Assembly: GCA_902826065.1 (NCBI GenBank)
Contig: CADEDM010000016.1
Coordinates: forward strand, 1-44,317
Length of the DNA: 44,317 nucleotides
From: an uncultured Acidobacteriota bacterium
GTDB lineage: Bacteria; Acidobacteriota; Vicinamibacteria; Vicinamibacterales; UBA2999
Direction: 5' to 3'
In this document: positions 2,708 through 7,956 of the stretch, one piece after another
Numbering within the stretch: the stretch's first letter is position 1
Layout: the number at the start of each line of letters is the position of its first letter
Notes under the pieces: generated by a model
Told to the model about the DNA's origin: nothing
Databases searched by the model: none
Seen by the model: only the letters and a program-made list of their open reading frames with translations
Translations under genes and position numbers: made by a program

Positions 2708-3181
2708 ATGGCCACACGACCGCGTCCCGCATCTGGTGCGAGGACCCGCCGCCGCAGCGACACCCGCGGCTCCGATCGCTTCGAGCGGGCGGGCACGGCT
2801 GCGTCCGACATCGTGCGCGAGGCCGCCTCGCTGCTCGATGCCGAGCTCGCCGCCGGCATCGTCACGGCCAGGCGCATGCAGGAGCGGTTCTCGAAGGAGC
2901 GCCGCATCGACCCTGCCGACTTCAAGGAATCGCTGACGCGGCTGCAGACCGACGCGCACGACATCGTCGCCGCGCTCGACACGCAGCTCACGCGCATGCG
3001 CTCCGACGAGAACGCCGAGCTCGCGTCGCGCCTGACCCGCCACGCCCACGATCTCGTCGACGTGCTCGTGAACGTCGTCAACATGGGCGCGGAGCTGGCC
3101 GGCGAGGTGGTCGAGAAGAACGTGGGCCGGAGGCCGGCGCGCCGCCCCGCACGCCGCGCGGCCAAGGGGCGTCGCCGCTGA
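2708..3181 (+). CDS. Small helical protein of unknown function with Arg/Lys-rich C-terminal tail
   Basis: The protein has 157 residues and a well-placed GGGAGG ribosome site about 6 bases before the ATG. I do not recognise the family. The first 27 residues are rich in Arg, Ser and Thr. Residues about 30-135 look like continuous amphipathic helices with no Gly or Pro breaks of note, including a hydrophobic segment DVLVNVVNMGAELAGEVVE. The last 17 residues are almost entirely Arg, Ala, Pro and Lys. No signal peptide is seen, so it is probably cytoplasmic, and the tail suggests binding to nucleic acid or another polyanion. It is followed after 12 bases by the polyprenyl synthase gene, possibly in one transcript. 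Similar tails occur on the proteins at 9019 and 18196. Confidence 0.7.
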   Translation: MATRPRPASGARTRRRSDTRGSDRFERAGTAASDIVREAASLLDAELAAGIVTARRMQERFSKERRIDPADFKESLTRLQTDAHDIVAALDTQLTRMRSDENAELASRLTRHAHDLVDVLVNVVNMGAELAGEVVEKNVGRRPARRPARRAAKGRRR

Positions 3182-3193
3182 CGGCGGCACGCC

Positions 3194-4222
3194 ATGTCTG
3201 ATGCGCCCGCGACGTTCACGCGGGATCTCGCGCGCTACCGCGATCTCACCACCTCGGCGCTGCTCGACGGCATCCCGGCGGGTGGACCGCCGTACCTCTA
3301 CGACCTCGTCGCCAGCTATCCGTCGCGCCACGGCAAGGGGCTGCGGGCGGCGCTGTGCCTGGCGACATGCGAGGCGTTCGGCGGCACGCGCGCCCGGGCC
3401 CTCAACTCCGCCGTGGCCATCGAGCTGCTGCACAACGGCTTCCTGGTGCACGACGACGTGCAGGACGCCAGCGAGGCGCGTCGCGGCGGCCCGACGCTGC
3501 ATCGCAGCCACTCGGTGGGCATCGCGGTGAATGTCGGCAACGCCACGAACCTGCTGGCGCTGCGCCGGCTGGTCGACAACCGAGCGACGCTTGGCCCCGA
3601 ACGTGCCGCCGCCATCGTGGACGAGACCGACCGCATGATGCGTCACACCCTCGAGGGCCAGGCGCTCGAACTGGCGTGGATCGCCGACAACGCGTGCGAC
3701 CTCGACGACGGCGACTACCTGCGGATGTGCCTGAAGAAGACCAGCTGGTACTCGTTCGTCTACCCGATGCGCGTCGGCGCCACCATCGCGATGGGACCGC
3801 GTCCGGCCGACGCCTTCACGCGCTTCGGCTGGTACCTGGGCGCGGCGTTCCAGATCCAGGACGACGTGCTGAACCTCACCGGTCACTACGATCGCTACCG
3901 GAAGGAGATCGGCGGTGATCTCTTCGAGGGCAAGCGCACGCTGATGCTGATCCGGGTGCTCCGTGCCTGCTCGGGGCCGGAACGACGACGGCTGAAGGCC
4001 TACCTGGCGGCGCCGCGGACAGCGCGCACCGAGACGGACGCCCGCTGGCTGCTGGCGCTGATGGAGCGCCACGGCGCGATCGCCCACGCGAAGGCGGCGG
4101 CCCGCCAGCTCGCCGGTGCGGCGATGTTCGAAGCGGCGCGGACGCTGGGGCCGGTGCCCGACGGTCCGGCGCGCCGGTTCATCCACGATCTCGTGCGCTA
4201 CGTGGTCACGCGCGACGCCTGA
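3194..4222 (+). CDS. Polyprenyl (geranylgeranyl-type) diphosphate synthase
   Basis: This 342-residue trans-isoprenyl diphosphate synthase condenses isopentenyl diphosphate with an allylic diphosphate in the cytoplasm. The GKGLRAAL segment (about 48-55) corresponds to the conserved GKxxRP diphosphate-binding motif. The first Asp-rich motif reads HDDVQD (86-91) and is followed by RRGGPTLHR. The second reads QIQDDVLN (220-227), with Asn in place of the usual last Asp, and the downstream GDLFEGKRTL segment is typical. The residue usually written GD after the first motif (NVGDA) is Asn here (NVGNA). These differences suggest a divergent member, but the main Mg-binding aspartates are intact. Chain length of the product cannot be judged safely. 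Confidence 0.9.
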   Translation: MSDAPATFTRDLARYRDLTTSALLDGIPAGGPPYLYDLVASYPSRHGKGLRAALCLATCEAFGGTRARALNSAVAIELLHNGFLVHDDVQDASEARRGGPTLHRSHSVGIAVNVGNATNLLALRRLVDNRATLGPERAAAIVDETDRMMRHTLEGQALELAWIADNACDLDDGDYLRMCLKKTSWYSFVYPMRVGATIAMGPRPADAFTRFGWYLGAAFQIQDDVLNLTGHYDRYRKEIGGDLFEGKRTLMLIRVLRACSGPERRRLKAYLAAPRTARTETDARWLLALMERHGAIAHAKAAARQLAGAAMFEAARTLGPVPDGPARRFIHDLVRYVVTRDA

Positions 4223-4248: not shown

Positions 4249-5856
4249 ATGTCCGGATGCGCGGCCCGGGTGGCCGCCGCTCTCGCGGCCGTTGCGGGGC
4301 TGCTGGCGTTCGCATGGACCGCCCGGATCGGCGCCGCGCAGGCCCCGGCACCAGGCACGCTGCGCGTCACGGTGTCCCTCGTGACCAGCGACGGCGCCAC
4401 CGTGCCCATCTCACGGCACGCACTGCTCGTCAGCGACAACCCGGCGACCACGGCCCCGAGGCGCGTCGTGACCGGCACCGACGGCGTTGCCGTGCTCCGG
4501 CTGCCACCGGGCAACTACACCGTCGAGTCTGATGCGCCGGTGGCCTTCCAGGGCCGCGAGTATCTCTGGGTCCAGACGCTGGATGTCCCGGCCGGCGCCG
4601 AAGCCGCCCTGACGTTCACCGCCGCGAACGCCCAGGCCGGCGCGGTAACGGCCGCCTCGGCGACGCCGGGCGCGCGTCCCGTCGACAACGCCGACGTGCG
4701 GACGCTGTGGCAGCAGAGCGTCGTGTCGCTCTGGCTGCCGACGGCGCAGGCGTCCGGGTTCCTCGTGGACCCGCGCGGGCTGGTGGCAACGAGCCAGCAG
4801 GCCGTGGGCACGCAGACGACCGTGGAGGTGCAGCTCACGCCGGCGCTCAAGTTCGCCGGGCGGGTGCTGCTCGCCGACGCGGCGAACGACGTCGCGGTGC
4901 TGCGCGTCGACGCCGCGGCGGTCGCGACGATTCGCCCGGTCCCGCTCGGCTGCGGTGCGTCGCTGCCGGCGCTGAAGAACGGCCAGGAGATCGTGTCGCT
5001 CGACGCCGCCACCGTCGGCCGTGTGCGCGAGACGGACGGCACGGTGAGCCGCGTGAACGCGCGCGCGATGATCGCCGACCTGCCGCTGCCGCGTGGCGCC
5101 ATGGGCGGCCCGGTGTTCACGGCCACGGGCACGGCGATCGGCCTGGCGTCGCTCATCGGCGAGAAGGAAGGCGACGCCCGTGACGAGTCGCGCGTGGTGC
5201 GCGTCGACGCGGTGTGCGACGTCGTGGCGAAGGCCATCGCGGCTCTCGAGAAGTCTCCTGCGGCGACGGCGACGCCGCTGCCGGTCGAGCCGTCAACCGC
5301 CATCCCGGAGGGCGCGCTCGAGGCGATGACCAGGGGCCGCGCCGGCAGTCTGGGCGCGTATCGCGCCGCGTCCACCGGCTTCGACGTCTCGCTGCTGACG
5401 CCGTTGCAGATCTACGCGGGCCGTGAGTCGATGGACTTCGCCAACTGGGCGCTGTACATGGCCGAGCCACCGGCGGCGCTCTTCGTGCGCGTGACGCCGA
5501 AGCTCGAAGAAGGCCTGTGGGCCACGGTGGCGCGCGGTCTCGCCATGACGCAGGGGATCGCCCTGCCGCCCATCCGCCGCTTCCTGCCAGGGTTCGGCCG
5601 CATGCGCGCGCTGTGCGGCACGACCGAGGTCGTGCCGATCCATCCGTTCCTGCTCGAACGCCGCATCCGCGAGACCGACGCGATTCACGAAGGCCTCTAC
5701 GTGTTTCCCGCCAACGCGCTGGGCCCGCACTGCGGCACCGTGACGCTGCAGCTCTACTCCGATCGGGCTGACGCGAAGGTGGATCCGGTGACCATCGATC
5801 CGAAAGTCCTTCAGGACCTCTGGAACGACCTGGCGCCGGCGCGTGCCGCGCGCTGA
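4249..5856 (+). CDS. Secreted HtrA-fold pseudo-protease with N-terminal beta-sandwich domain
   Basis: The protein has 535 residues, with an N-terminal signal-like segment to about residue 31 (GAAQA). Residues about 35-130 look like a carboxypeptidase-regulatory or PEGA-like beta-sandwich (PPGNYTVESDAP). Residues about 150-305 follow the trypsin-like fold of HtrA/S1C proteases: ASGFLVDPRGLVATSQQAVG, then NDVAVLRV, then PRGAMGGPVF. In active HtrA these are the His, Asp and Ser segments. Here the His is replaced by Gln184 (codon 4798-4800) and the Ser by Met285 (codon 5101-5103), while Asp214 remains. It should therefore be proteolytically inactive and may act as a binding or sensing module. The last 200 residues are unassigned. 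The start is supported by AGAGGG just before the ATG. Confidence 0.75.
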   Translation: MSGCAARVAAALAAVAGLLAFAWTARIGAAQAPAPGTLRVTVSLVTSDGATVPISRHALLVSDNPATTAPRRVVTGTDGVAVLRLPPGNYTVESDAPVAFQGREYLWVQTLDVPAGAEAALTFTAANAQAGAVTAASATPGARPVDNADVRTLWQQSVVSLWLPTAQASGFLVDPRGLVATSQQAVGTQTTVEVQLTPALKFAGRVLLADAANDVAVLRVDAAAVATIRPVPLGCGASLPALKNGQEIVSLDAATVGRVRETDGTVSRVNARAMIADLPLPRGAMGGPVFTATGTAIGLASLIGEKEGDARDESRVVRVDAVCDVVAKAIAALEKSPAATATPLPVEPSTAIPEGALEAMTRGRAGSLGAYRAASTGFDVSLLTPLQIYAGRESMDFANWALYMAEPPAALFVRVTPKLEEGLWATVARGLAMTQGIALPPIRRFLPGFGRMRALCGTTEVVPIHPFLLERRIRETDAIHEGLYVFPANALGPHCGTVTLQLYSDRADAKVDPVTIDPKVLQDLWNDLAPARAAR

Positions 5857-5922: not shown

Positions 5923-7956
5923 ATGCCTCGATTCCCGTCCCTGCTGCTGCTGTCGGCCGTGTCGCTGGCCGCGCTCTCGACCGCGCGCCCGCTGGCCGCG
6001 CCCACGGATCTGACCGTGACGCCCGGCGAGCTCGTGATCGAGCGTCCGACACTGGCCAATCTCGGGTTCGAATGGCACATCGACGGCGACGCCAACCGCA
6101 ACGCGACGGTGGAGGTCTCGTTCCGCCGCCAGGGTGACAGCGCCTGGCGTCAGGGCCTGCCGCTGCTGCGCCTGCACGGCGAGCAGGTGTTCCAGCGCAA
6201 CGTCTTCAACCTCGTCGTGCCGAACATGTTCGCCGGCAGCGTGCTCGACCTCGAGCCCGACACCGCCTACGAGGCGCGATTCGTGCTGAGCGATCCCGAC
6301 GGCGTCACCGGCCCGGCGGCGAACGCGACGAAAGTGGTGACCGTGCGCACCCGGCCCGAGCCGAAGGCGGCCGAGGGCGGCAAGGTGTATCACGTGTATC
6401 CCACGAAGTGGCAGGGCCCGAAGATCGAGCCGGCCTTCGAAGGGATCATGTGCGCCTACAACTACTACTGCGGCGCCGGCGATACGGCGCCGGGCGGACG
6501 TCCGCGCGTGAAGCCGGGCGACACGATTCTCGTGCACGCCGGTCTCTACGCGTATCACTACGAGTTCTACGCCAACAACACGCAGATCAACGCCACGACG
6601 ACGTTCGAGGGCACCTACTACCTGACCGCGGACGGCACGGCAGAGCGCCCCATCGTGATCAAGGCCGCCGGCGACGGCGAGGTGATCCTGGACGGCCGCG
6701 GCAACTTCAACCTGTTCAACGTGAAGGCGGCCGACTACACCTACTTCGAGGGCCTCACGTTCCGGAACACGCAGATCGCGATCTGGGCCGGCACGCAGTT
6801 CATCGCCGGCTCGAAGGGGCTGACGGTGAAGCGCTGCCGGTTCGAGGACGTGGGCATGGGCGTGTTCTCGAACTCGTCGGCGTCGCAGGACTTCTACATT
6901 GCCGACAGCACCTTCCTCGGCCGCAACGACCCGCGGCACCTCACCGGCTGGAACGGCGCGTTCTGGGCGCAGTTCGCCAACGTCGAAGGGCAGGAGTTCC
7001 CGCCGGTGATGAAGTCGTACACGGCGGTGCGGCTCTACGGCGCCGGCCACGTCGTGTCGCACAACTACGTCGCCGACTTCCACGACGGCATCGACACCGA
7101 GATGTACGGCATGCCCGACGGCTCGCACGCCATCGACGGCCCGAGCTATCCGCCGCGCGAGGCCTGGGATCGGCGGCCGGTGGCCATCGACATCGTCGAC
7201 AACTACATCACCAACGCCCACGACAACTCGATCGAGATGGACGGCAGCATGCACAACATCCGCGTGATGCGGAACATGCTGATCAACTCCGCGTCGCACC
7301 CGATGAGCACGCAGCCGTCCACGGGCGGGCCGATCTACTTCATCCGCAACATCGTGTACCACGCGCCGGGCGGGTCCACGCGCGCCACGGCCGGCTCGCC
7401 CGGAGTGCTGTTCTACAACAACACGGTGACGACGGAGACGACCGCGGCCGCGTCGTCGAACGTCCACTGGCGCAACAACCTGATGCTGGGCCAGAACTCG
7501 TCGGCGTCGGTGTTCAACGTCACGACCAACACGGCCTACAGCTCGTCCGACTACAACGGCTTCCGTCTCAACCCCGGAGACGAGTCGTTCCGGTGGGCCT
7601 CGCCGCCTGCCGGCACGGCCCGCGTGCCCGCCGATGGCGGCGGCGCCAAGCTCGTGGAGGTGAAGGCCGCCACCCTCGACGCCTTCCAGCGCGCGACCGG
7701 CCAGGACCAGCACAGCGTGCTCGTCGACTACGACTTGTTCGTGAAAGTGCCGAAGCTCGACGCGAAGGATCTCGCGACCGTGCAGCGGCTCTACAAGGCG
7801 CAGGACGTCGATTTCACGCTGCGCCCGGGCAGCGCCGCGATCGATCGCGGCGTCGCGCTGCCAAACGTGACCGACGGCTTCAGCGGCCAGGCGCCGGATC
7901 TCGGCGCACTCGAGGCCGGAAAGCCGTTGCCGGTCTACGGGCCACGACCGCAGTAG
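5923..7956 (+). CDS. Secreted right-handed parallel beta-helix protein
   Basis: The protein has 677 residues with a clear Sec signal peptide (hydrophobic core about 6-20, ending near ALAAP). Residues about 30-150 look like a fibronectin-like beta-sandwich. From about residue 200 the chain contains short beta-helix coils with Asn ladders and repeated GLTFRNTQ, VDNYITNAHDN and RNMLINSA patterns, the Pfam beta-helix type found in polysaccharide lyases and pectinases. The NPGDTILVHAGLYAY-like start of the helix (here KPGDTILVHAGLY) is common to exported beta-helix proteins. A glycan-active role is possible, but no lyase active-site motif can be fixed from sequence alone. The promoter immediately upstream suggests its own, leaderless transcript. 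Confidence 0.8.
   Translation: MPRFPSLLLLSAVSLAALSTARPLAAPTDLTVTPGELVIERPTLANLGFEWHIDGDANRNATVEVSFRRQGDSAWRQGLPLLRLHGEQVFQRNVFNLVVPNMFAGSVLDLEPDTAYEARFVLSDPDGVTGPAANATKVVTVRTRPEPKAAEGGKVYHVYPTKWQGPKIEPAFEGIMCAYNYYCGAGDTAPGGRPRVKPGDTILVHAGLYAYHYEFYANNTQINATTTFEGTYYLTADGTAERPIVIKAAGDGEVILDGRGNFNLFNVKAADYTYFEGLTFRNTQIAIWAGTQFIAGSKGLTVKRCRFEDVGMGVFSNSSASQDFYIADSTFLGRNDPRHLTGWNGAFWAQFANVEGQEFPPVMKSYTAVRLYGAGHVVSHNYVADFHDGIDTEMYGMPDGSHAIDGPSYPPREAWDRRPVAIDIVDNYITNAHDNSIEMDGSMHNIRVMRNMLINSASHPMSTQPSTGGPIYFIRNIVYHAPGGSTRATAGSPGVLFYNNTVTTETTAAASSNVHWRNNLMLGQNSSASVFNVTTNTAYSSSDYNGFRLNPGDESFRWASPPAGTARVPADGGGAKLVEVKAATLDAFQRATGQDQHSVLVDYDLFVKVPKLDAKDLATVQRLYKAQDVDFTLRPGSAAIDRGVALPNVTDGFSGQAPDLGALEAGKPLPVYGPRPQ

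Follow-up and report, generated by a model that had tools for sequence, protein, structure and literature searches.

The window, that is the whole 44,317-nucleotide stretch of Acidobacteriota DNA analysed here, carries a complete gene for a pseudo-protease of HtrA fold, the features of which are collected in Table 1. The gene starts 26 bases downstream of a polyprenyl synthetase gene, and among its relatives no neighbour family was found to recur beyond close relatives; the neighbours are therefore not conserved and the context gives no function. A 157-aa ORF adjoining the polyprenyl synthetase gene (window positions 2708-3181) gave a HrpJ match of 20.8 bits, below the Pfam cut-off of 25, and a secreted-looking ORF downstream (5923-7956) gave weak matches to chondroitinase B and to a right-handed beta helix, also below the Pfam cut-offs.

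Table 1. Features of the pseudo-protease gene, with positions in the window.
Feature	Position	Strand	Basis or remark
Complete pseudo-protease gene	4249..5856	+	ATG start, 535 aa
Probable Sec signal sequence, residues 1-31, AQA at end	4249..4341	+	read from sequence
N-terminal beta-sandwich, residues 36-132	4354..4644	+	all-beta in model, pLDDT 75-89
HtrA-fold (Trypsin_2) domain, residues 148-334	4690..5250	+	Pfam 50 bits; VIA Z 23.8
Gln184 codon, catalytic His position	4798..4800	+	HMMER alignment, clade alignment
Asp214 codon, catalytic Asp position, kept	4888..4890	+	Asp in 22/37 of clade
Cys235 codon, member of gained cysteine pair	4951..4953	+	36/37 of triad-less clade, 0 intact relatives
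Met285 codon, catalytic Ser position	5101..5103	+	HMMER alignment, clade alignment
Cys323 codon, Cys235 partner by co-occurrence	5215..5217	+	36/37 of triad-less clade, 0 intact relatives
C-terminal Ig-like domain, residues 366-533, PxHP motif and Cys456/Cys495	5344..5847	+	model pLDDT 80

The only Pfam family above its cut-off in the 535-aa protein was Trypsin_2, which matched at residues 168-299 (50 bits; cut-off 27.6). The AlphaFold2 model (mean pLDDT 80) consisted of a helical start, an all-beta domain, an HtrA double barrel and a C-terminal domain, with the helix of the signal region placed at residues 4-25 at low confidence; the hydrophobic N-termini are similar among the relatives. The barrel was best superposed on HhoA (VIA Z 23.8, rmsd 2.5 Å over 174 residues). 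The preliminary description had placed a beta-sandwich before the HtrA fold and about 200 unassigned residues after it, and the model bears this arrangement out, with the approximately 200 residues resolved into a linker and an Ig-like domain that has no Pfam match. The beta-sandwich is also found in relatives with an intact triad; the CarboxypepD_reg-like family PF13620 gave no match at E 0.1 in the window protein and 14 bits, against a cut-off of 32.3, in one such relative (L126). Foldseek returned no match under E 0.001 for the C-terminal domain, and other structural matches of this domain were to generic beta-sandwiches only (best VIA Z 8.5, to the DUF4426 protein 3uc2), so that no function was drawn from them. 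Among 396 Acidobacteriota genomes, matches to the C-terminal domain were confined to this architecture wherever the frame was complete.

The same description had claimed that both the His and the Ser of the catalytic triad are replaced in an HtrA fold and that the Asp is retained, and Pfam, the HMMER alignment and the AlphaFold2 model agree on this point. Specifically, alignment to plant Deg1 (3qo6) and MucD paired Gln184 with the catalytic His, Asp214 with the Asp and Met285 with the Ser. The whole HtrA-fold domain (residues 148-334) contains no His, which makes a substitute triad impossible and rules out another active-site His within the predicted double barrel. As the other seven strongly matching HtrA domains of the same genome all keep H-D-S, the loss of the triad is specific to the gene at 4249-5856.

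Homology over the full length was found with ORFs of other Vicinamibacterales genomes. In 59 related genomes, some 20 long relatives were found, with 34-48% identity over the matched portion, and about 40 were found in the whole order, with a patchy presence; that only about 40 of the 162 Vicinamibacterales genomes, in a comparison made up mostly of metagenome assemblies, carry the gene shows that it is dispensable. In the profile search of contigs, the closer alignment (A2) gave matches and a single-sequence query gave none; a search of plasmids gave no match to the pseudo-protease. In a tree from which the catalytic columns had been excluded, 37 aligned Vicinamibacterales members formed one clade with support of 100/100, and a complete triad was present in none of them. 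The His column of this clade contained R in 20 members, Q in 10, H, S and L in two each and A in one, the Asp column D in 22, G in eight, N in five and E and A in one each, and the Ser column A in 17, S in six, T in five, L in three, V in two and M and P in one each, with a deletion in the remaining two. The loss of the triad is thus common to the clade and the replacing residues are not: conservation of Gln and Met across orthologues, which the preliminary description expected of a real pseudo-enzyme, was not observed, since each catalytic column drifts and what stays is the absence of a complete triad, together with a newly gained cysteine pair. In two members (G072 and G120), in-frame deletions have removed about a quarter and about two fifths of the protease domain, including the Ser site. 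The window protein itself grouped in the tree with family f3 (G037, G049, G157 and G159) and not with the proteins of its own genus (L072, L077, L078 and L079), possibly by transfer or hidden paralogy; a single-genus clade of the five same-genus proteins was not rejected (p-AU 0.14).

Relatives with an intact active site were present within and outside the order. The sister of the 37-member clade, G045 (L028), has the same three domains and keeps H-D-S, both splits being supported at 100/100, and outside the order H-D-S is kept in the same architecture in G470 (L126), G163 (L128), G179 (L129) and G344 (L131), the frame of the last stopping before the C-terminal domain. G052 and a second gene of G033 have no beta-sandwich but retain the triad and the C-terminal domain. 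HtrA proteins are in general active proteases, and, the clade being nested among such relatives, the change is taken as a loss of the triad and not a gain. A further protein from outside the order, G197 (L127), keeps His and Asp and has Ala in place of Ser; forcing it into one clade with the 37 was disfavoured (p-AU 0.026), so that it likely represents a second, independent loss of catalysis.

Cys235 and Cys323 co-occur in 36 of the 37 clade members, are absent from all of the intact proteins and are both retained in G072 and G120 despite their deletions. From this co-occurrence, the two residues probably form a disulfide that holds the protease-fold domain; Cys456 and Cys495 of the C-terminal domain likewise co-occur. 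G058, which branches off first within the clade, lacks the triad and has a cysteine at neither position, and for this reason the loss of the triad seems to have preceded the cysteine pair.

The relative rates of the three domains were compared by fitting one topology to each domain separately. The branch-length ratio of the protease domain to the C-terminal domain was 0.59 for branches outside the clade, 1.16 for its stem and 1.47 for branches inside it, and that of the beta-sandwich to the C-terminal domain was 0.84, 0.73 and 1.09, respectively. The same pattern was seen in pairwise distances, with values of 1.32 within the clade and 0.68 between the intact proteins; the protease domain, the slowest of the three where the triad is intact, has thus become the fastest in the clade. 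In seven close pairs its dN/dS was 0.18-0.33, a range that comes from simple Nei-Gojobori counts on few pairs, and across the three folded domains most values lay at 0.1-0.35. On these ratios, the triad-less protease domain is still under purifying selection, which could reflect fold stability alone.

The domain at residues 148-334 (Trypsin_2) shares its fold with the HtrA/Deg proteases (HhoA, Deg1, MucD and DegP; MEROPS S1C), from which the window protein differs in the loss of His and Ser and in the additional N-terminal beta-sandwich and C-terminal Ig-like domain. One or more C-terminal PDZ domains are usual, although not universal, in HtrA/Deg proteins; no Pfam match to a PDZ domain was found in the window protein, in which the C-terminal model is Ig-like, and the Do-family model TIGR02037 of NCBIfam scored 37.9 bits against a cut-off of 416. 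The intact Acidobacteriota relatives (G045/L028, L126, L128, L129 and L131) belong to the same family and have the same domain order, but they keep H-D-S and their protease domain evolves slowly. A literature search on Acidobacteria HtrA and inactivity found no paper bearing on the pseudo-protease.

Two described proteins serve as precedents, by analogy, for a non-catalytic role of this fold. MamO of magnetotactic bacteria is an HtrA-fold pseudo-protease with a degenerate triad and a non-catalytic role, which binds metal through a di-histidine site and promotes MamE-dependent proteolysis, its regulatory action using its C-terminal transporter domain (PMC4794232). The degenerate triad in an HtrA fold is common to both proteins; however, MamO has the transporter domain and the di-histidine site and works beside MamE, whereas in the window protein the domain is free of His and a transporter is absent, and the searches made showed no active member of the family in its genome; its score on the MamO family model NF040961 was 12.3 bits (cut-off 800). 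Metal binding of the MamO type was considered for the window protein and is unlikely, the protease-fold domain being without His. In RsgI9 of Clostridium thermocellum (7sjy), the S1C domain is reported to bind cellulose (PMC12203970). Here, too, an S1C-like domain lies within a multi-domain extracytoplasmic protein, but RsgI9 carries an NTF2-like domain and is an anti-sigma factor of the membrane, whereas in the window protein Pfam matched no RsgI-type anti-sigma domain and all that lies ahead of the beta-sandwich is a short hydrophobic segment at the N-terminus; the similarity between the two (E 0.0028) covers the protease fold only. Conversions of a protease into a non-enzyme are thus known from MamO and RsgI9, but not in the family of the window protein.

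The sequences show triad loss in a single clade, a shift in constraint, gain of cysteines and continuing purifying selection. The window protein is best read, with a probability of roughly 0.6, as an exported binding scaffold that works outside the cytoplasm without catalysis and descends from an active HtrA-type protease that lost its triad once in the Vicinamibacterales. The ancestor would have been an active HtrA-type serine protease domain between a beta-sandwich and an Ig-like domain; after a single loss of the triad in the Vicinamibacterales lineage, a cysteine pair, probably a disulfide, would have arisen in the protease fold while the old active site drifted. The present protein may then act without catalysis as a scaffold or receptor outside the cytoplasm, and so as a binding or regulatory module, its degenerate barrel joining the domains or binding a ligand such as a peptide, a misfolded protein or a glycan, and its main contacts being made by the beta-sandwich and the Ig-like domain. 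More tentatively, and with the odds somewhat against it, the clade could be a new family, of single origin in the Vicinamibacterales, whose members are secreted receptors built on the HtrA fold; catalysis would have been lost first and a disulfide gained afterwards, the barrel would have been reduced to a connecting frame that tolerates partial deletion, and the function would have passed to the beta domains on either side of it.

A regulatory partnership, in which the pseudo-protease would join or compete with an active HtrA and tune proteolysis as MamO does with MamE, is suggested by the promotion of MamE-dependent proteolysis by MamO (PMC4794232) and by the seven intact HtrA domains of the same genome. 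It is nevertheless an unlikely reading, because no neighbour gene is conserved, G033 was the only carrier genome in which the searches made showed an active copy of this family, and the acting part of MamO, its C-terminal transporter domain, is absent from the window protein. The drift of the catalytic columns, the internal deletions in two members and the patchy presence could also be read as stages in the pseudogene decay of a protease, but full-length open frames persist in nearly all members across a large divergence and the rate ratio of the N-terminal to the C-terminal domain is about as in the active relatives; in view of these points and of the purifying selection indicated by the dN/dS values, decay is improbable.

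Even harder to credit is that the protein is still a hydrolase and relies on some unusual catalytic centre other than the classical triad. Asp214 and the GxxGGP loop remain, and six clade members have Ser and two have His in place; yet the domain is devoid of His in several other members as well as in the window protein, none of the replacing residues is conserved, the oxyanion-hole position equivalent to 193 is not Gly in several members and two members have lost the Ser segment. The intact relatives might finally have suggested that the window protein is an isolated mutant in a family of active proteases, a reading that the lack of a complete triad in all 37 clade members refutes. Neither of the two refutations named in the preliminary description, other residues completing the active site and a lone mutant among intact orthologues, therefore holds.

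To our knowledge, most known conversions from protease to non-enzyme are isolated cases. In the present family, the same three domains occur with intact and with broken active sites within one phylum, and the order of events can be read on the tree, from an intact triad through its loss (basal G058, without the cysteine pair) to the gain of the cysteine pair, drift and partial deletion, so that what replaces catalysis is directly testable with pairs of proteins. For the genes of the clade, an annotation as “trypsin-like peptidase” would be wrong.

A second degenerate HtrA-like ORF, unrelated to the present family, was observed at L160 (G000:C78; minus strand, 2945-3916; 324 aa). Its motifs VVTSGRGL, TSLAVVRV and GALTGGAL indicate that His, Asp and Ser are all apparently replaced, and it lies in tandem with an intact HtrA-PDZ-like gene (minus strand, 1536-2669; 378 aa), an arrangement that looks like an active/inactive pair.
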